Of a DNA stretch of 39,118 nt, positions 2,903-28,627 are shown piece after piece. Position numbers and translations under genes: made by a program. Position 1 is the first letter of the stretch, and every line of letters starts with the position of its first letter. Source of the stretch: Chloroflexota bacterium (GTDB lineage: Bacteria; Chloroflexota; Anaerolineae; UBA1429); assembly GCA_021372475.1 (NCBI GenBank), contig JAJFUJ010000083.1:1-39118 (forward strand), given 5' to 3'. Below the pieces are notes generated by a model. That model made no database searches. It saw nothing but the letters and a program-made list of their open reading frames with translations, and was not told the origin of the DNA.

Positions 2903-4261
2903 CTAGAGACTCGACAATGTGTCGGCCACACAGCCATCAAGGATAGCGAGCATCTCTTCCAGCTCTTCGGCCGTAACGATGAGCGGCGGAGCCAGCGCAA
3001 TCCACTGTGGGTCAAAGCGAATAATCAAGCCGCGCTCCTGCGCCAGCAGACCAATGCGCTTGCCGATCGCGGTTTCATCTGAGAAAGGCTCTTTTGTGCG
3101 CGAATCGCGTACAAGCTCGATGCCCCACAGCAAGCCCTTGCCGCGCACCTCGCCAAAGATGCCGTAGTGCTGCCCCATTTCGAGCAGCTTGCGCTGCAGA
3201 AGCGCGCCCATCGCGCGGGCATTGGCCGGCAGGTCGCGCTCGATAATCTCCCTGGTGGAGGCAATGCCGGCCGTTGCGCTGAGAGGATTGCCAGCGAACG
3301 TATGGCCGTGGCCGAACTCGATGCCGGCTTCCTCCGGCCCCCAGAAGGCAGAATTAACGCGGTCGTTCCAGATGGTAGCGGCCAGAGGCGCATATCCGCT
3401 GGAAAGTCCTTTACCCAGGCACAGAATATCCGGAGTTACGCCAAAGGTCTGCGCACCGAACATCTGACCGGTGCGCCCCATGCCGGTTATCATCTCGTCC
3501 AAGATGAGCAGCACGTCGAATTCATCGCAGATTTGGCGCAGCCTGGGCAGATATTCCGGCGGGGGAACCAGTATTCCGCCCGTATTGCCGATAGGCTCAA
3601 CAATCACAGCGGATACTGTCTGCGGTCCTTCCAAGGCGATAACCTGCCGCAGGTACTCGGCGCAGAAAATACCACAGTCGGGATAAGTCTTTTGATAGGG
3701 GCAGCGATAGCAGTGCACCGTCGGGATATGGATAAATCCCTCCGGCAGCGGCTCAAACGGAACACGCCGTTTGGGCGTGCCTGTGGCCGCCATCGCGCCG
3801 AGGGTCGCACCATGGTATCCCCAATAGCGTGAGATAACCTTGTACTTGGTCGGGTGGCCGGCCTGCTTCCAGTACTGGCGGGCCAGCTTCATCGCCGTCT
3901 CGGTGGCTTCAGAGCCGGAGGAAAGCAGCTTGACGGTGTTCAGCTCCCCGGGGGCTAGGCTGGCCAGCAGCTCGCAACATTCGATCGCCGGGGCATTTGT
4001 GCCGTGCAACGGGGCTGCGAAAGTGAGTTTATCGAGCTGGTCGTGCATCGCCTTGAGCACGCGGGGATTGTGGTGGCCGACCGCCACGACAAAAATGCCC
4101 GAGAGAGCGTCCCAGTAGTGCTTGCCATCGATATCCCAACAGTGCACGCCCTCAGCATGGTCGAAAATCAACGGCTGCTTTACGAATGTACTCATCTGGC
4201 GGAAATCCAGCATACTGTGCTTTAATACATCCGGATCCCTGACTTGATCGTGATCGAGCAT
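2903..4261 (-). CDS. Class III (omega) aminotransferase, PLP-dependent, with four-Cys insertion
   Basis: This 452-residue fold-type I aminotransferase moves an amino group between a primary amine or omega-amino acid and a keto acid such as pyruvate. PLP-site residues are visible: GSEAT at 116-120 (phosphate binding), Asp255 in ILDEM, and the Schiff-base Lys284 in LCLGKGLSSG. An insertion at 184-200 carries Cys184-x2-Cys187 and Cys196-x3-Cys200, a pattern I associate with taurine-pyruvate and related aminotransferases. The ATG at 4261 sits behind a strong GGGAGG site 23 bases after the glycyl radical enzyme gene. It probably supplies a keto or aldehyde intermediate to its operon partners. Substrate cannot be read from the sequence. 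Confidence 0.88.
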   Translation of the reverse strand: MLDHDQVRDPDVLKHSMLDFRQMSTFVKQPLIFDHAEGVHCWDIDGKHYWDALSGIFVVAVGHHNPRVLKAMHDQLDKLTFAAPLHGTNAPAIECCELLASLAPGELNTVKLLSSGSEATETAMKLARQYWKQAGHPTKYKVISRYWGYHGATLGAMAATGTPKRRVPFEPLPEGFIHIPTVHCYRCPYQKTYPDCGIFCAEYLRQVIALEGPQTVSAVIVEPIGNTGGILVPPPEYLPRLRQICDEFDVLLILDEMITGMGRTGQMFGAQTFGVTPDILCLGKGLSSGYAPLAATIWNDRVNSAFWGPEEAGIEFGHGHTFAGNPLSATAGIASTREIIERDLPANARAMGALLQRKLLEMGQHYGIFGEVRGKGLLWGIELVRDSRTKEPFSDETAIGKRIGLLAQERGLIIRFDPQWIALAPPLIVTAEELEEMLAILDGCVADTLSSL

Positions 4262-4284: not shown

Positions 4285-6387
4285 TCACTCCATAGCCTGG
4301 GTTGAGCGGTTGATAATCATCTCCTGCCAGTCTTTGCTCAAGGTAACAAAGCGCGCCGACCAGCCGGAGACGCGCACGGCCAAAGTAGCGTAGTGCTCGG
4401 GGTGAGCCTGCGCCTCGCGCAATACAGCGTTATCGATGACATCGATATGCATAAAGATGCCCCCGAGGCGGATAAAAGTTCTGAGCAGCCCGACGAGCGA
4501 ATCCACACCCTCTTGCCCGCTGACAGCGCTGGGGTGGAGCTTGAGCTCCAGCGCCGTCCCATTGGGCAGGCGCACCAGGTCCATCGCACAGTGCGAGGCA
4601 ATCACCGCGGTTGGCCCCTGGCGGTCTGAGCCGGGGGACGGTGAAAAGTTCGTAGCCAGGATATCGCCGGCATGATGCCCGGCCGCACTGGCGCCGCGCT
4701 GCGGACGCCATTCGATCTCACGGCCAAAAGTGCTGACCCCTGCCGGACGCAACACACCGCAGCGCTCGTGGACCGCCTCAACCGCGGCCAGGAAATCATC
4801 GAAGACGCGCTTGGTCATCGCGTCGGCCTCGGCATCGCCATTGCCGTAAGTCGGGTAACGGTTCTTGATGTGCAGGCGCAGCGTTTCCTGCCCCGCCCAG
4901 TCGCTGCGCAGGCATTCCACAAAAGCGGGCAGCGTCAACGCACGCTCATCGTATACTAGGCGCTTGATCGCGAGCAGGGCATTGCCCGCATCCGGCAGCC
5001 CACCGGCATGCGGGGAGTAGACGTTATAATGGGCGCCGCGGTCGGTATAGCCGCGTCCGCGCTCGATGCAGTCCTCGGTGAGTAAGGAAACAAGCGCGCT
5101 GGGCGCGCCGTCGGTAGCAAACTTATCCCCTTCGGCATGTATAGCCCGCACTTGGTCAGCCAGCGCTGTACGGAAAGCAGTGTACAGTTCCTCGAAATCC
5201 GCATAATCGGCGGTATGGCCGTTGCACACCCCCAGCACCTGTTGCAGGATGGCCAGGGTGTCAAAAGGTCGGTAAGCAAAATGCGTCTTGCCGGGAATCT
5301 GAATCTCCCAACAGCCATCATTCGCAAAGCCGCGCGCCTCGACCAGGTCATAACCAAAGCGCTGCAGCGCAGCGATGATCAAGTCTTCGTTGTAAACGGC
5401 CACCATCCCGCCCCCGCGGCGCTGCACCTCGGCGATGCGCCTGAGCAGCTTCTCCGGGCTGCGAGAACTGATGCGTACGGCAATCGGGTAATCGCTGATG
5501 CCCAGTTCCTCCACAATATCCAGAACCAGGTAGGTAAGCTCGTTGGTCAGGTCGCGCCCGGCAGCATCGCAGCCGGAGAGCACGATATTCTGGTAATATT
5601 GGCCATCTCCTGAAACTCCGCTAAAAGTATCGCGGCTGCCGACCCACTCGCAGCCTTTGATCCAGAAATGCGCCAAAAGCTCGCGCGCCTCATCGAGCGA
5701 AATGATGCCGGCGGCGAGATCGCTCTGGAGCAAAGGGCCCAACATCTCATCGATGCGCCCGATGCCGGGCCAGTTGCCGCACAGGCGTTGAAAGTCGAAC
5801 AACAACCATAGCGCCTGGATAGCCTCGCGGAAGGTGCGCGGGGGGTTTCCCGGCACACTGCGAAGGGCTTCCAGCACCGCGGCATAATGAACACGCTGCT
5901 CGCCAGTAGATGTAGACACGAGCTGTTCCAGGGCTTGCACATAGCGCCACTGCCAGAGGCAAGCCGCATCGATGCAGGAGCGCATCGCCTGCAGGGTATC
6001 TACGCCGCGCTCGTCCAGACCGCCGCGTGCCAAACGTTCATCGATTTGCAGGCGCAGGCCGCGGTAGCCCAGCTTGAGTGCGCTGGCGAAACCAAGTGTC
6101 ACGTGGCTAATGCTGCTATAGGCCGGCTTGCCCTGGACATATACGGGCAGCCGATGGAAGGTAGCCTGCTGCAGCGTCGCCGCGCCGACCAGCAGTTCAT
6201 GCGGGTCAATGCGCAGGGGCGCATTGGCCGCAATCAGACCGACTGCGCGGGCATAACGCTGCTCTGCGCTGGCATCCTGCAGGCCGGGAATGTCATCCAG
6301 CGTCAACGGCAGATCGACGAGTGAACGGCCCCATTCGCCATGTAAAACGCACTCATTAAGCTGCCGGGTTGACAGGCATAACTTCAT
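4285..6387 (-). CDS. Glycyl radical enzyme, pyruvate-formate-lyase superfamily, short divergent type
   Basis: This is a 700-residue oxygen-sensitive radical enzyme. The C-terminal glycyl radical box reads VRVSGWSARF with Gly675, followed by the usual tail (SKDWQEMIINRS). The thiyl-radical Cys359 lies in GCWEIQIPGK. The Cys-x-Glu361 arrangement is the one found in dehydratase-type members (glycerol, choline, propanediol, hydroxyproline enzymes) rather than in pyruvate formate-lyase. A conserved DCIERGRG block is at 439-446. At 700 residues it is shorter than well-studied members (about 760-900). It is the first gene of a leftward five-gene operon with a promoter-like element at 6521-6549. Such enzymes need a radical-SAM activase, and none is encoded in the window. 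A C-C, C-O or C-N lyase/dehydratase on an operon-specific substrate is likely, but the substrate is unknown. Confidence 0.88.
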   Translation of the reverse strand: MKLCLSTRQLNECVLHGEWGRSLVDLPLTLDDIPGLQDASAEQRYARAVGLIAANAPLRIDPHELLVGAATLQQATFHRLPVYVQGKPAYSSISHVTLGFASALKLGYRGLRLQIDERLARGGLDERGVDTLQAMRSCIDAACLWQWRYVQALEQLVSTSTGEQRVHYAAVLEALRSVPGNPPRTFREAIQALWLLFDFQRLCGNWPGIGRIDEMLGPLLQSDLAAGIISLDEARELLAHFWIKGCEWVGSRDTFSGVSGDGQYYQNIVLSGCDAAGRDLTNELTYLVLDIVEELGISDYPIAVRISSRSPEKLLRRIAEVQRRGGGMVAVYNEDLIIAALQRFGYDLVEARGFANDGCWEIQIPGKTHFAYRPFDTLAILQQVLGVCNGHTADYADFEELYTAFRTALADQVRAIHAEGDKFATDGAPSALVSLLTEDCIERGRGYTDRGAHYNVYSPHAGGLPDAGNALLAIKRLVYDERALTLPAFVECLRSDWAGQETLRLHIKNRYPTYGNGDAEADAMTKRVFDDFLAAVEAVHERCGVLRPAGVSTFGREIEWRPQRGASAAGHHAGDILATNFSPSPGSDRQGPTAVIASHCAMDLVRLPNGTALELKLHPSAVSGQEGVDSLVGLLRTFIRLGGIFMHIDVIDNAVLREAQAHPEHYATLAVRVSGWSARFVTLSKDWQEMIINRSTQAME

Positions 6388-6636: not shown

Positions 6637-7869
6637 ATGGCTTATCCTGTGCATTGGTACCAGTTTACAGAACACCCGAGCTCGGACTCATGCTGGTCTC
6701 TTTCGGTTGGCCCGGATGGGAGGATATATGCTTCGGCATGCGATGAGCACTCTCCCGGCGGTTTTGTAAAGGTTGTACGCTACAATGAACAAACCGATTC
6801 TCTCGATTATTTGTTTAATCTGGATGAGCTTGTAGAAGACCCGCACAATTCGGGACGCGCTACGCAGTGCAAGATTCACTATTCATTCGCGCCGTCGATG
6901 CACGACGGGATTATGTTTATGGCGACGCACCTTTCCGGGCCGCCGATTGACCAGCCGGCTTATTCTCCATGGCGTTCCTGGCATGACCCCAAACGCTGCT
7001 TCCGTGGTTCCGCGCTACTAGCTTGGGATACGCATACCGACCAGATGTTGTGGTGGGATACCATCATTCCCAAAGAGGGCTGCCGCTGCCTGGCGCTGGA
7101 TGAGGAGCGCAGCTTGCTCTATGCTCTCGGCTACCCGCGCGACCACATGTACCAGTATAACCTGGCCACCCGCGAACGCCGCGACCTGGGACGCATCGGC
7201 TCGATCAACTCGCAGGTGTTGGTGCTGGATAAGCTCCATCGCGTATGGACCACAAGCGACTATGGACGCCTGGTGCGTTATGACCCGCAAAAGGACCGCC
7301 TTGAATCTGGGCTGGAACCTTTGCCGCATAATCCGCAATTCCAAACCGGCTGGCACTCGGTGTTTTATGATGCCGTGTTCGCACCTGACAGCCAATCCAT
7401 CTTTGCCTGCTCCTGGATCGCCCAGCCACGCCTGATGCGCATCTGGCTGTACGAGGGCGAATGGGGTCGGGTCGAGGATTTGGGCCCGGCTACCCAGGAC
7501 CGCGATTTGACTATTCCCATCGATACCTTCAAAGACCACTGCGGCGGCATGACTCTCGGCGGCGACGGGATGATTTATTATGTCGCCTCACGCTGGCGCG
7601 ACGAAAAATATAACCCGATGTCCCCTGACCACGCTGAGCGCGAGGGCGTCGTCTGGCGTCTAAACCCGGATACCTACGAAAAAACCGAGGTTGCGGTACT
7701 GCAGCGGCCGGGCGAGTTCGCGCAGTACGTCTCGCGAGGCGCTGTGGACCATAACGGCAATTTATTCTTCGGCCATGTGGGACCGATGCCCGTGGGTATT
7801 TTCAGAGTCGATATGCCTGCCGACCATAGACGGCGTGACGCCCATCTGCCCATCCGCGTATGGGGATAA
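6637..7869 (+). CDS. Predicted cytoplasmic beta-propeller protein, possible lyase-like role
   Basis: This 410-residue protein has no signal peptide and no membrane segments. It shows repeated short beta-blade patterns, with recurring units such as GPDGRIYAS, LDEERSLLYALGY, GGDGMIYYVAS and DHNGNLFFGHVG at roughly 40-60 residue spacing, as in SMP-30/YVTN-like propellers. The middle holds a Trp/His/Asp-rich stretch (SPWRSWHDPKRCFRGS) that looks like a conserved surface patch. The start is well fixed by AAGGAGG seven bases upstream. It heads a three-gene operon with a second propeller protein and a GH106-like glycosidase, which suggests a role on the same saccharide. Several polysaccharide lyase families are propellers, so a lyase is possible. 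I do not recognise the exact family. Confidence 0.7.
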   Translation: MAYPVHWYQFTEHPSSDSCWSLSVGPDGRIYASACDEHSPGGFVKVVRYNEQTDSLDYLFNLDELVEDPHNSGRATQCKIHYSFAPSMHDGIMFMATHLSGPPIDQPAYSPWRSWHDPKRCFRGSALLAWDTHTDQMLWWDTIIPKEGCRCLALDEERSLLYALGYPRDHMYQYNLATRERRDLGRIGSINSQVLVLDKLHRVWTTSDYGRLVRYDPQKDRLESGLEPLPHNPQFQTGWHSVFYDAVFAPDSQSIFACSWIAQPRLMRIWLYEGEWGRVEDLGPATQDRDLTIPIDTFKDHCGGMTLGGDGMIYYVASRWRDEKYNPMSPDHAEREGVVWRLNPDTYEKTEVAVLQRPGEFAQYVSRGAVDHNGNLFFGHVGPMPVGIFRVDMPADHRRRDAHLPIRVWG

Positions 7870-7879
7870 GGAGTTTATC

Positions 7880-8965
7880 ATGACAGATAAGCCTATATTC
7901 GACGAGGAAGCTCGCCGCAAGGCAATAGATGAGATTGTGCATGGCACCTTTCTGATGGAAGGCACGATGGTAGCCTTTCCCACCTGCTTTCCCGGAACCA
8001 CTACGGCAATCCCAGCCGACGAGAGCCTGTTTACCGCGCTCGCGCTCGGCCCGGATGCGCTGGTGTACGGCTGCACCAGCGGCAGGCAAGCACATCTGGT
8101 AGTAGGGATGTTTCACGGATTGACAGGGATTATTTATGACCTGGGCACGCCTGCAGGTATGACGAAGGGCATTGCCGTCGGCTGCAGCGACAAGTTCGTT
8201 GTTGCGGCGTTTAATGGACCAACCGGGGGCTGCCTGGTACGCCGCGAAGTGCATTATCTGCCCTTCGATTTGCTCCAGGAATGGGGCTTTAGCCGCCCCG
8301 ACCTGGATACCCTGCCCAGCGTGGCCGGTGGCGAAGCTATTACGGATGGCATGATGCTGGATGACAATACGTTTGTCGTTGCCACCCGCAGGCACCTAGC
8401 AGCAGTAAACATTATAACGGGTGAATCCACTATATTAGCCAAGCTGCTCCAACCAACTCGTCTAGCCCGCGCGGCCGATGGCAGTATTCTGGGCATCGGC
8501 GGTCAAGGTATGTGGCGTTACAGCCCGGCAAAAGGCTTTGAGCCCGCTGCGCTCGCTCTGCCAACTGGCGCTTGGGACAGCTACGCATGGCAGCGAGCTC
8601 AAGATCCATCTAGCGGCTTGCTCTATCTGACGGACTCCGCGGGACGGCTGTATAGTTACGAACCAACTGCAGGATTCAGCCCATTGCTGGCCACTACGCC
8701 GCTCACCCCTATCGGGGCGATGGCGGTCACCTTTGACGGGCGCTTGTTCGGGGCTTGCGGTGAAGGGATTGCCAACCTTTTCTGCTACGATCCCGCCGAC
8801 AAGACCATGCGCAACCTGGGCGTTGCTGCTTCGGTGATAGAACGCCGGCGTTACGGTTACACCTTCGGAGCGGCCATCGTCGGCCGTGATGGAGAGATTG
8901 TCTTCGGTGAAAATGACAACCTCGGCCACATCTGGCTGTATTTCCCGCGCTTGAAAAAACATTAA
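7880..8965 (+). CDS. Second predicted cytoplasmic beta-propeller protein
   Basis: The gene encodes 361 residues from an ATG at 7880 that follows AAGGAG and begins MTDKPIFDEEARRK. The frame is open further upstream, but that part overlaps the previous gene and lacks a ribosome site. There is no signal peptide. Blade-like repeats are visible (GPDALVYGCTSG, GSILGIGGQGMWRYSP, SSGLLYLTDSAGRLYSYEP, DGRLFGACGEG, DGEIVFGENDN). It is not closely similar by eye to its upstream neighbour, although both are probably propellers of comparable size. Its stop codon overlaps the next start by one base (TAATG), which indicates translational coupling with the glycosidase. The function is unknown. Sugar binding or a lyase-like role is inferred from the operon only. 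Confidence 0.68.
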   Translation: MTDKPIFDEEARRKAIDEIVHGTFLMEGTMVAFPTCFPGTTTAIPADESLFTALALGPDALVYGCTSGRQAHLVVGMFHGLTGIIYDLGTPAGMTKGIAVGCSDKFVVAAFNGPTGGCLVRREVHYLPFDLLQEWGFSRPDLDTLPSVAGGEAITDGMMLDDNTFVVATRRHLAAVNIITGESTILAKLLQPTRLARAADGSILGIGGQGMWRYSPAKGFEPAALALPTGAWDSYAWQRAQDPSSGLLYLTDSAGRLYSYEPTAGFSPLLATTPLTPIGAMAVTFDGRLFGACGEGIANLFCYDPADKTMRNLGVAASVIERRRYGYTFGAAIVGRDGEIVFGENDNLGHIWLYFPRLKKH

Positions 8966-11874
8966 TGGGTGAATTAATGGACACGTATGACCAACTGGTA
9001 AGCGCTTTTCAGCGCCCGCCGCTCGAATACGGCCCACTGCCGTTCTGGTTCCTCAACGAGGTGCTCGAGCCCGAGCGGTTAACCTGGCAGATGCAGCAGA
9101 TGCACGCCCAGCACGTGGATGCCGTCATCCTGCACCCGCGACCGGGGATGGTGACCGAGTATCTCTCGCCCGACTTTTGGAAGGCTATCGCAGCCTGCGT
9201 GGACACCGCACGCGAGCTAGGCATGCGTGTCTGGCTGTATGATGAATATCCATGGGCCAGTGGCATCGCCGGCGGTAGAGTGCCCGAGGCAAATTACGAT
9301 TATGTCATGAAGAACATGGATCTCATCGCCAATGAGGTGGCTGGTCCCCAGGAAATACACTGGCCTCTTCCCAGGCAGGTTGTGAGTCTGACGGCTGCGC
9401 CGGTCATCTCCTCGAATACCATCGATGGCTCTCAGATAGCGGACCTCCTGCCGTATGTGCACGATAAGCAGCTTGCCTGGCAAGTTCCGGCCGGAACATG
9501 GCGCATTATGGCGGTATTCGTGCGCAACGGCCTGACCACCTTTGATGACCCGTACGGCGTTCAACGCTGGGCTGATCTCACCAACCCGGAAGGGGTGGAT
9601 CTCTTTATCAAGCTGACGCATGAAGAATATAAAGCTCGCTTTGGCAGCGAGTTCGGCAAAACCATCTGGGGAGTATTTACCGACGAGCCGCCATCCACCT
9701 TCCCCGCCTGGGGCGTCCACGTGCCCGAACGTTTTCGCGAGTTGAAGGGCTATGAGCTGAGCTCTATTCTGCCCTTTCTGTGGTTCGACGGCGGTCCCAG
9801 GACTGCCGTGGCGCGCTGCGATTATTTCGATGTGCTCTCCAAGTGCTATGAAGAAGCTTTCTTTGCGCGCATCGGCCGTTGGTGTGAGCAGAACAATCTC
9901 GAGCTGGGCGGACATCTACTGCTGGAAGAGAACCTCGTATTGAACACGCGCTTCATGACCCATTCCTTCCGTCAATTGCGGCATTTGCAGATACCCGGTG
10001 TGGACTGGATTTTCCCGGGAACGATTCCAGCGTATGTACCACGCTTTGCAGCCTCTATAGCGCACGATTACGGCCGCCAGCGCTCGCTGTGCGAAACCTA
10101 TGCACTGGCTGGTTGGGCTAAAGAGATGCAGTGGATGCGCTGGCAGATGCAGTGGGAGTTCGTGCACGGCGTGAACCTGCTGGTGCCGCATGCGTTTTTC
10201 TATTCCATCAGCGACACGGTGCCCATCCCGCCGGCACCGGATAATATCGGCTACCGCTGGTATGACTGTCCGCCTTCGATGTTTTACCAGCAGCCTTATT
10301 GGCGGCATTATCACTGTTTTGCGGACCTGACCGCCCGTTCGAGCTATCTGCTGACACGTGGAACGCATGTCGCCCAGGCAGCTATCTTTTACCCGATAAA
10401 CAGCGTTTGGGCGGATTTTGCGCTTTCCGATGGCTGGCTGCGCGGTGTACACGCGAACGCCCTCGATATGCCCGGCTCCTGGATGACGGCCGACAAGCTG
10501 GAGGAAGGACCTGCCGCAGTGGTTACCGATTCCTGCTACCGCTCCATCATCGACGGCTTGCGCGAACACAACCTGGATGTGGACATCCTGGATGACGACA
10601 CGCTACAACGAGCTGATATAGCCGATAGCTCACTGAAGGTAAACCAGGAGTCGTTCAACGTCTTTATCCTGCCGGCTGTGCATACCATTTCGCGTGCAAC
10701 TATGACCAAACTCACCGAGTTTTGGCGCCAGGGCGGCACTATCGTTGCGCTGCGCAGCCTGCCCAGCGCTTCGCCCGAATACGGCGCAGACGACCCGCAA
10801 ATTGCAGTTTTGGTAGAAGAAATCTGGGGCAGCGCGCCTGCAGCCAACCTACCGGAGCGCCGGGCATCCTTTTACGCCGGTGGGCTAGAGCCTGAGCTGG
10901 AGGGAGTCATTTCCAGACTTACGCCGGGTATCATCGTCTCAGAAAAGGGAATTTACAGCCAGCAGCGTCACTTGCCGGAGTTGGAGTTATTTTACCTGGT
11001 CAGCATGCATCCCGAGGCGTGTTCAGCGCAGGTGCAGCTCAACCAGGTTGGGATACCCGAGCTTTTAGACCCCCAAACCGGTCGCGTAGCAGCAATAAGC
11101 ACGTTTCGTTACGAAGGAGCCACGACAGTTATACCGCTCTCATTTGAGCCGTACGGCGCGGTATTTATCGCCATGCGCCAAGGCAGAGCGTCTGCCAGCA
11201 TCTCGGCTACAAACCTCGAGCAGGCTGTCCTAGAATTCGTGGACGGTAAGCCTGCGGTGAGCGGTTTAGTCGCAGAAGCGGGCATTCCATGGGCAGAGGT
11301 GCAGTTGGAATCCGGCAGCGTTCGCCTGGCTGGAGCGCCCCAGGCAGGGCTTGAAACCATGCAAGGCGGGGATACCTGGCACTTTGAGGTGCTGCCTGCT
11401 CCGTCAGAGCCGCTTTGGCATGCCGATATGGATCGCCTCGAGTTGATGATTCCGTATGAGGGTGTGCCGCGGCAGATGCGTACCGGCTCTTGGACGGTGC
11501 AGGGACTGCCGGGATTCTCAGGTATCGGACGCTACAGCCAGGAGATCGATATCCCGGCTTTCTGGGCAAACAAAACGCTTTCTCTGAACCTGGGGGAAGT
11601 CAAGGTGGCAGCCAAGGTCTTCTGGGACGGACAGGATATCGGCGAACGCACCTGGGCGCCGTATACATTTGTACTAGGCGAGGTGAAACCGGGCAAACAT
11701 CTGCTGGTAGTTGAAGTTGCCAACACCCTGGCAAACTATATCTCGGTGCGCCATGCGGATTCGCCGTTGCAATGGGCGCACTTTAGCGCAGCACAGTTGG
11801 AATCCGGGTTATTAGGGCCAGTGCGCCTCTCCGCAACTCAACGGGTTACTCTCGAACCAGCAGCTGCTTTCTAG
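8965..11874 (+). CDS. GH106-like glycoside hydrolase (putative alpha-L-rhamnosidase)
   Basis: This is a 969-residue glycosidase without a signal peptide, so probably cytoplasmic. The N-terminal half is a TIM barrel with the hallmark opening of the rhamnosidase-like GH106 group: PLPFWFLNEVL near residue 25, HPRPGMVTEYLS near 57, and WLYDEYPWASG near 90. Candidate acidic catalytic residues are Glu241 in VFTDEPP and Glu377 in LCETYALAGW, which is followed by HGVNLLVPHAFFYS. The C-terminal 150 residues form a GH2-like sugar-binding jelly roll (GRYSQEIDIPAFW, then LGEVKVAAKVFWDGQDIG). Start is ATG 8965, overlapping the previous stop by one base; an in-frame ATG at 8977 (MDTYDQ) is an alternative. 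It likely removes terminal rhamnose or a similar sugar from imported oligosaccharides. Confidence 0.78.
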   Translation: MGELMDTYDQLVSAFQRPPLEYGPLPFWFLNEVLEPERLTWQMQQMHAQHVDAVILHPRPGMVTEYLSPDFWKAIAACVDTARELGMRVWLYDEYPWASGIAGGRVPEANYDYVMKNMDLIANEVAGPQEIHWPLPRQVVSLTAAPVISSNTIDGSQIADLLPYVHDKQLAWQVPAGTWRIMAVFVRNGLTTFDDPYGVQRWADLTNPEGVDLFIKLTHEEYKARFGSEFGKTIWGVFTDEPPSTFPAWGVHVPERFRELKGYELSSILPFLWFDGGPRTAVARCDYFDVLSKCYEEAFFARIGRWCEQNNLELGGHLLLEENLVLNTRFMTHSFRQLRHLQIPGVDWIFPGTIPAYVPRFAASIAHDYGRQRSLCETYALAGWAKEMQWMRWQMQWEFVHGVNLLVPHAFFYSISDTVPIPPAPDNIGYRWYDCPPSMFYQQPYWRHYHCFADLTARSSYLLTRGTHVAQAAIFYPINSVWADFALSDGWLRGVHANALDMPGSWMTADKLEEGPAAVVTDSCYRSIIDGLREHNLDVDILDDDTLQRADIADSSLKVNQESFNVFILPAVHTISRATMTKLTEFWRQGGTIVALRSLPSASPEYGADDPQIAVLVEEIWGSAPAANLPERRASFYAGGLEPELEGVISRLTPGIIVSEKGIYSQQRHLPELELFYLVSMHPEACSAQVQLNQVGIPELLDPQTGRVAAISTFRYEGATTVIPLSFEPYGAVFIAMRQGRASASISATNLEQAVLEFVDGKPAVSGLVAEAGIPWAEVQLESGSVRLAGAPQAGLETMQGGDTWHFEVLPAPSEPLWHADMDRLELMIPYEGVPRQMRTGSWTVQGLPGFSGIGRYSQEIDIPAFWANKTLSLNLGEVKVAAKVFWDGQDIGERTWAPYTFVLGEVKPGKHLLVVEVANTLANYISVRHADSPLQWAHFSAAQLESGLLGPVRLSATQRVTLEPAAAF

Positions 11875-27559: not shown

Positions 27560-28627
27560 ATGCAAAAAGCGAGCCAGCCCGTTGACGAGACACCTCCTGC
27601 GCTGCGCGCGTTATTAGCGCGCCACGCTGCCTGGTGGCGCAAGAGTGGCCTGTTGTATGCGGAGACGCCCGACAGCGGGCTTGGCAGCCTGTGGCTGCCC
27701 CTGGCGGACGGCTCGACCGCCCAGCAGGATATTACGCTCACGCCGGAGATGCTCGATGTAGAACGCCTGGTCGGCCCAGCTTTGGCCAAAGGGGATCTGC
27801 GCACCTGGGGCGATATCATCCAGACGCGTGACGCGTACCTGCGCATACCATGGGTGGAAGCCATCCTCGGCTGCCCTATCCGCACCAGCATCCAGGGCGG
27901 GGCGATGCGCGCCGGCCACTTGTCGTATCCGTGGAAAGCACTTACAGATGATTCCACCGGCACAGCCTGGCTCGAACTGCTGCAACGTATGGTCAGGTTG
28001 CTGGTGGAGCGCTCCGGCGGGCAATTTGCGATTACCCATACGTTGATGCGCGGTACTTCGGACCTGGCTGAGGCTGCCTTGGGACCCGAACTGATGTGCC
28101 TCTCGCAGTACGACCACCCGGCAGAGCTGCGCGTGTTTCTAGAGCGTGCTGCCCAACGTTTTATCGCCATCTGGCGGGCGCAGTGCGAGCTGATACCTCA
28201 GCTCGAACGTGGTTATGTAAACTGGTTTGGCATTTGGGCGCCGGGCACGACCGTGCGTACGCAGTGCGACGCGTCTGCCCTGCTATCGCCGGAGCAGTAC
28301 CGCGATTGGTATCTGCCTTATGATAACATGCTCGCAGAAGCCGCCGATTACGCTGTAATCCATCTGCATTCCGGTTCGCTGCATACGGTGGAAGCCCTGC
28401 TTCAAATGGAAAAGCCCCAGGCGATACAGATCTCGCTGGATCCGCAGCCCAGCGGTCCCCCGCTGGAAAAGCTTCTGCCGGTATTCCGGCACATCCTGCA
28501 GGTGAAATCGCTCATTATAGACGGTGCGCTCAGTGCCGCTCAGGTCGCGCAGCTACTCGATAAACTGCCAAGCGATGGATTGTGTATCATCGTGCGCGGG
28601 AATCCGGAGCAGCTTCCAGGGCTATAA
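27560..28627 (+). CDS. Divergent second UroD-superfamily protein
   Basis: This 355-residue protein sits four bases after the previous gene. It keeps the general UroD/MtaA layout: an N-terminal helical part, GGAMRAGHLSYPWK, a central PAELRVFLERAAQRFIAIW, VNWFGIWAPGTTVRTQCDAS, and a C-terminal barrel strand series (AVIHLHSGSLHTVEALLQM, AIQISLDPQ, LIIDGALS). The opening RxRxLxAL signature of the family is missing, and the end differs from its neighbour, so it may be a paralogue acting as partner subunit or with altered substrate. No zinc-type His-x-Cys pair is seen. Superfamily membership is likely from these features, but function is unknown. It converges on the phosphatase-like gene with a 6-base gap and no terminator. 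Confidence 0.68.
   Translation: MQKASQPVDETPPALRALLARHAAWWRKSGLLYAETPDSGLGSLWLPLADGSTAQQDITLTPEMLDVERLVGPALAKGDLRTWGDIIQTRDAYLRIPWVEAILGCPIRTSIQGGAMRAGHLSYPWKALTDDSTGTAWLELLQRMVRLLVERSGGQFAITHTLMRGTSDLAEAALGPELMCLSQYDHPAELRVFLERAAQRFIAIWRAQCELIPQLERGYVNWFGIWAPGTTVRTQCDASALLSPEQYRDWYLPYDNMLAEAADYAVIHLHSGSLHTVEALLQMEKPQAIQISLDPQPSGPPLEKLLPVFRHILQVKSLIIDGALSAAQVAQLLDKLPSDGLCIIVRGNPEQLPGL

Follow-up and report, generated by a model that had tools for sequence, protein, structure and literature searches.

The genes analysed here lie on the forward strand of contig JAJFUJ010000083.1 of a Chloroflexota bacterium (assembly GCA_021372475.1). The window, i.e. the whole stretch of DNA that was analysed, is the full 39,118-base contig; the parent assembly comprises 3.26 Mb in 250 contigs. 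Two adjoining genes, designated prop1 (6637-7869, +, 410 aa) and prop2 (7880-8965, +, 361 aa), encode predicted beta-propellers and may together form an undescribed two-propeller unit of sugar-acid breakdown. They are followed by gene 3 (8965-11874, +, 969 aa), which encodes a glycosidase related to family GH106. The length of prop2 was counted from the ATG at 7880, the mechanically called open reading frame (ORF) being longer (7691-8965). Ten bases separate prop1 from prop2, and good or strong ribosome-binding sites were found upstream of both. Three linked genes had been reported in the initial annotation and were found where it placed them. Its one-base overlap between the last two is correct if gene 3 starts at 8965 and disappears if the alternative ATG at 8977, with GGGTGA upstream, is the start; the overlap is uncertain because of this choice. 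In G136, a sister genome, a gap of 2 bases separates the corresponding frames. All three products appeared to be leaderless, as annotated, with no hydrophobic N-terminus and no twin-arginine translocation (Tat) motif in a simple hydropathy test. The three-gene block is kept in G136 at 83, 67 and 66% identity, and the propeller pair was found in another phylum at 71 and 50% identity. This conservation indicates that the three-gene arrangement is more than chance.

Modelling with AlphaFold2 supported the earlier assignment of two beta-propellers, and both proteins are predicted to be seven-bladed. The prop1 model, built on an alignment of four sequences, had a predicted template modelling score (pTM) of 0.81 and a mean predicted local distance difference test score (pLDDT) of 74.2. 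The corresponding values for prop2, built on three sequences and with weak ends, were 0.68 and 63.1. Strand counting gave seven four-stranded blades in each model, closed into a ring by an N-terminal strand; one or two strands are short or absent. Fold comparison returned more than 1,400 matches at E < 0.001 for each model. Near the top, in tied order, were WD40 proteins, YncE, BT4673, Lp49 and virginiamycin/streptogramin B lyase. With tied scores against hundreds of propellers for each model, the comparison fixes the fold and not the family. Polysaccharide lyase (PL) families were not among the best 50 of the more than 1,400 matches, and lower rows could hold them. No Pfam family was found over its cut-off and no NCBIfam match up to E = 0.1 for either protein. 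Profile searches of PDB sequences gave marginal or designed-propeller matches only, and a PHROGs search gave nothing useful. A match of prop2 to SGL (PF08450) stayed below threshold (14.9 bits, cut-off 26.3), which does not support membership of the SMP-30/gluconolactonase family. The prop2 profile also gave a marginal match to 1jof, a carboxy-cis,cis-muconate cyclase (E 0.26).

prop1 and prop2 were found to be paralogous, as their profiles aligned over 311 columns with a probability of 99.8. A close prop1, separate from prop2, was present in eight genomes. prop2 lies directly 3' of it in all six with a readable flank (the window, G136, G314, G332, G333 and G370); the copies in G621 and G315 stop at the contig end. 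The adjacent pair thus spans Chloroflexota and Latescibacterota. In genome G831 the two are fused in one uninterrupted frame, with a prop1-like part at residues 122-529 and a prop2-like part at residues 552-918, and this fusion was first detected with queries that did not include G831. The same gene order is seen in distant pairs of G366, G323, G324 and contig 650 of G315, the last with leaders that look Sec-like by eye. The paralogy of the propellers and the recurrence of the pair go beyond the initial annotation; none of the open-licence papers listed by searches of PubMed Central (PMC) deals with a propeller pair like this one.

A prop1 search of 301 genomes from the window's phylum gave 2 positives. 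Three close loci were found in public genome contigs, from Chloroflexi (83% identity), Candidatus Latescibacterota (71%) and Bryobacterales (73%). In the Latescibacterota group (64 genomes), a four-sequence prop1 profile had matches in 18 at E <= 0.001. Four of these matches were strong (G314, G332, G333 and G370, about 1e-148 or better) and the rest were distant. The prop1 profile matched 2 of 297 genomes of the Bryobacterales phylum at 1e-20 and 4 of 396 genomes of the window's class at 1e-10, two of the latter being distant. No match to prop1 was obtained in collections of plasmids or viral contigs. When five split close pairs were each compared with the window, prop1 was the better conserved partner every time, and its identity between phyla is 71%. 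Residues K79, H81, G91, D131, Y162, G185, Y215 and P230 were invariant in 12 aligned relatives, K79, H81 and Y162 being kept down to 21% identity. The Acidobacteriota copies of prop1, in G315 and G621, start with RRDF-type Tat leaders, which fits an extracellular glycan as target. The Latescibacterota group also contains a large superfamily of distant propeller relatives (L020-L045, including L021, L038 and L039), with up to seven matches per genome. These are single or paired, and several adjoin amidohydrolase-, cyclase- or Gfo/Idh oxidoreductase-like genes (by eye).

Kinship with known propeller lyases had been expected in the initial annotation. PL24, PL25, PL42 and GH145 enzymes are seven-bladed propellers and the PL42 enzyme FoRham1 belongs to BNR_4, according to PMC8377490; the window pair shares with these families the seven blades and possibly an action on uronate glycosides. 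PL24, PL25, PL42 and GH145 are single propellers with BNR_4 repeats, whereas the window pair is a tandem of paralogues with no BNR_4 match in Pfam up to E = 1 and no Asp-box repeat (SxDxGxTW). PL22 oligogalacturonate lyase is a cytoplasmic propeller enzyme acting on uronides, and a PL22-family gene adjoins a distant single relative in genome G313. The window propellers have no PL22 (PF14583) match up to E = 1. Comparison by hhalign gave probabilities of 2.1 and 0.2 against one BNR_4 member, and of 0.5 and 2.6 against one PL22 sequence. No probability exceeded 6.1 with any of four propeller proteins, namely a BNR_4 member, a PL22 sequence, a BNR-like protein and a frame surrounding the PL22-family gene in G313. 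Since each was a single sequence, distant kinship may still exist. Membership of the BNR_4-type and PL22 families was not found, and the proposed kinship is not supported. Lyase chemistry of the pair is unproven. PL11 enzymes are eight-bladed propellers with calcium sites, and the models of the window pair show seven blades. Among single-propeller folds, streptogramin/virginiamycin B lyase (2qc5, 2z2o) ranked with the best matches to either model (Z 28.6, rmsd [root-mean-square deviation] 2.5, 291 residues; Z 24.7, rmsd 2.9, 284 residues). It ties with many unrelated propellers, and the identity is 13% and 8%. In prop1, the spacing of H81/H98 and Y166/R182 is superficially like that of the His-His and Tyr-Arg pairs of PL24, PL25 and PL42. 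This likeness was set aside as probably coincidental, since R182 is located on an outer strand in the model.

Gene 3 was annotated as a GH106-like glycosidase, and this is borne out by a match to the GH106 profile PF17132 (73.3 bits, cut-off 29, E 2e-20). It also resembles GH106 in a jelly-roll-like C-terminal part. Its score against the NCBIfam rhamnosidase equivalog was far below the cut-off (94 and 1300 bits, respectively). In the alignment with 6q2f, a solved relative from GH106, residue E506 (in TDSIE), which we take to be the general acid of GH106, falls on P243. The window sequence reads TDEPP here (TDEP, 239-242), with the acidic residues shifted to D240-E241. Residue E644, presumably the second catalytic Glu, aligns with E377 and is kept. 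No paper on the roles of the GH106 catalytic residues was found in the open-licence PMC collection. The gene 3 alignment covered 47 loci, i.e. the window gene, its G136 orthologue and 45 other rows, a few of which are two pieces of one gene and three of which have no residues at the acid position. Of the 42 related rows with residues there, 41 have the Asp-Glu that precedes the acid position and 34 have the longer DEP; the one row without Asp-Glu, L079, reads VDSLE and thus has the GH106-type motif. A counterpart of E377 is present in 40 of 45 rows. By its sequence, gene 3 belongs to a sister clade of GH106 and is not a proven rhamnosidase. With a proline at the acid position and a place in the sister clade, rhamnose specificity does not follow, and neither rhamnose as the target sugar, as proposed earlier, nor a rhamnosyl-uronate substrate is supported. 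Gene 3 shows that a GH106-profile match in these genomes need not mean a rhamnosidase.

A close orthologue of gene 3 was found only in G000 and G136. At a threshold of 1e-30, a wider set of relatives covered 31 of 199 genomes in the class, these two among them. No adjoining propeller pair was detected beside the other relatives within the short flanks examined. The glycosidase adjoins the pair only in the window genome and its sister G136. In the other genomes with a readable flank the pair has no adjoining glycosidase of this kind, which speaks against the three genes being one unit, as had been suggested.

Sugar-acid genes were found near the pair in three settings. In the window the gene is of the UxuA type and lies in the divergent operon described below. 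In G314, an aldehyde ferredoxin oxidoreductase gene, prop1 and prop2 form one run beside a divergent gene for 2-keto-3-deoxy-6-phosphogluconate (KDPG) aldolase (L009 7134-12331, a Latescibacterota contig). The surroundings of the fused gene in G831 comprise a UxaA-type (altronate) dehydratase, a Cgl0159-like protein, a PFK-family kinase, a DeoR regulator, a 2-hydroxyacid dehydrogenase, a 2-oxoacid:ferredoxin oxidoreductase and a solute-binding (sugar-binding) protein of an ATP-binding cassette (ABC) system. These genes stand for three separate steps in the breakdown of hexuronates or hexonates and suggest a role in sugar-acid catabolism. Among the distant relatives, the pair in G315 lies beside a TIM-barrel protein that resembles glycosidases and matches GH42M weakly. 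In G313, a distant single relative with a KIH motif is followed directly by a PL22-family gene (L059 2871-5226, +; PF14583, 46.5 bits, cut-off 30).

The best explanation, which is held tentatively, is that prop1 and prop2 are an undescribed two-propeller unit of sugar-acid breakdown, an enzyme acting on uronate-containing glycosides. The two paralogous seven-bladed propellers would bind each other and act as one functional unit, with prop1, the more constrained half, as the probable catalytic part. The unit would cleave an imported glycoside containing a uronic or aldonic acid, most likely by elimination and otherwise by hydrolysis. In Acidobacteriota the cleavage would occur outside the cytoplasm, in Chloroflexota and Latescibacterota inside it. 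In the window lineage, the GH106-related glycosidase may trim a sugar off the same glycoside. The released acid would be passed on to UxuA-type, UxaA-type or KDPG-aldolase enzymes. The sequences themselves show the constant pairing, the fusion, the paralogy and the neighbouring sugar-acid genes, whereas mutual binding, enzymatic activity, substrate class and chemistry are inferred. In favour of this count the adjacency in six of six flanks, the G831 fusion, the paralogy, the conservation of prop1, the sugar-acid neighbours, the glycosidase-like or PL22 neighbours in the window, G315 and G313, and the Tat-type leaders in G315 and G621. To our knowledge, the propeller enzymes that act on acidic glycans do so as single propellers. 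That a pair outside any family is conserved, closely spaced and in one case fused points to a two-propeller enzyme not yet described, in phyla with few cultured members, and the pair offers a small, testable set of leaderless proteins. A more specific form of the idea is rather unlikely, namely that the two paralogues share one composite active site, cleave uronate-containing glycosides and constitute a new carbohydrate-active family. Such a family would have close members in Chloroflexota and Latescibacterota, the first subunit also in Acidobacteriota, and a fused form in one genome.

Several observations weigh against the enzyme proposed here. The fold matches are generic, and no enzyme family could be linked to prop1 or prop2 by sequence. 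Many of their distant relatives are single genes. No sugar-acid genes were seen by eye beside the pair in G332, G333 and G370, and the neighbourhood argument was made after looking and without a control. Conserved charge was not enriched on one face of the propellers. In the close set of prop1, invariant loop residues numbered 44 of 142 on the presumed active face and 20 of 63 on the opposite face (Fisher p = 1.0), and invariant charged residues numbered 13 and 10 (p = 0.23). For prop2 the p values were 0.83 (invariant loop residues) and 0.16 (charged). This test stood in for a search for the charged central pocket that the possibly new lyase families of the initial annotation call for; it counts against them, but weakly, as structural constraints preserve turns of the opposite face and the faces were assigned from model strands only. 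The lack of charge enrichment would suit propellers that are not enzymes at all and serve as a scaffold or ligand-sensing pair for the adjoining metabolic enzymes. WD40 scaffolds and propeller sensors also dominate the top fold matches, although in tied order. The partner genes are wholly different between genomes, which would be odd for a scaffold. The identity of prop1 between phyla and the presence of K79, H81 and Y162 in 12 of 12 aligned relatives also argue against such a role, which is held to be less likely.

The sugar-acid neighbours could also be read as a lactone pathway, in which dehydrogenases form an aldonolactone and the propellers open its ring, before a dehydratase of the UxuA or UxaA type and an aldolase take over. 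Propellers occur among known lactonases and muconate cyclase. The short-chain dehydrogenases/reductases (SDRs) and UxuA of the divergent operon, the dehydratase and dehydrogenase genes in G831 and the KDPG aldolase in G314 would fit, as would the SGL and 1jof matches of prop2 were they not within noise. The exported Acidobacteriota copies and the glycosidase and PL22 neighbours fit a glycan better than a lactone, and a lactonase is considered unlikely. Still less probable is the module of the initial annotation, with PL22/24/25/42-like lyases acting on rhamnosyl-uronate oligosaccharides together with a GH106 alpha-L-rhamnosidase. The propeller fold, the GH106 profile match, the UxuA-type gene and the residue spacing in prop1 speak for it. 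It is contradicted by the lack of BNR_4, PL22 and Asp-box matches, the low hhalign values, the outer position of R182, the proline at the GH106 acid position and the absence of the glycosidase gene beside the pair elsewhere. What stands of that interpretation is leaderless propellers without a family, a GH106-related glycosidase and a sugar-acid-like setting, and what falls is rhamnose, the lyase kinship and the module as one unit. It is equally doubtful that the glycosidase adjoins the pair by local accident, being part of another pathway to which the propellers are unrelated. Its close orthologue is confined to two genomes, and elsewhere the pair stands with other genes or alone. Against an accident, both genomes keep the three genes close together on one strand, and this order has survived divergence to 66-83% identity.

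The divergent operon of the window was described earlier as containing uronate-type enzymes, which applies to the last of its five genes and not to the other four. It is headed by a dehydratase-like glycyl radical enzyme (4285-6387, -, 700 aa), followed by a class III aminotransferase (2903-4261, -), an SDR oxidoreductase (2114-2887, -), an M20 family hydrolase (926-2104, -) and a UxuA-type (mannonate) dehydratase (3-899, -). The last gene is cut by the contig end; it scored 225 bits against NF003027 (cut-off 191) and did not pass TIGR00695. The glycyl radical enzyme carries the dehydratase motif GCxE and the C-terminal glycyl-radical loop RVxGxS, its GCWE and RVSGWS aligning with GCVE and RVAGYS of the diol dehydratase 5i2a. 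That protein was the best solved match (271.7 bits) and outscored isethionate lyase (196.9 bits); a taurine-type reading of the operon, based on its aminotransferase, SDR and glycyl radical enzyme, was set aside on these scores. The window enzyme has a shorter chain than 5i2a, and its cluster lacks a gene for the activase; the window genome and G136 each have one activase-like gene above the cut-off at another site. Promoter-like sites in the intergenic region (7 found, 4.9 expected) were near chance, and the intergenic regions of the window and G136 scarcely align. A common operator or promoter for both operons was therefore rejected, the one short inverted repeat not being seen in G136. In G136 the divergent operon continues with a second SDR. 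Further along are a zinc alcohol dehydrogenase and a thiamine pyrophosphate (TPP)-dependent E1 enzyme that has its alpha and beta parts in a single chain (L060 14457-16655, -), the latter on the same strand as the glycyl radical operon. Elsewhere in the window, a 355-aa ORF (27560-28627, +) with no Pfam match at E <= 0.01 lies directly after a URO-D-like gene.

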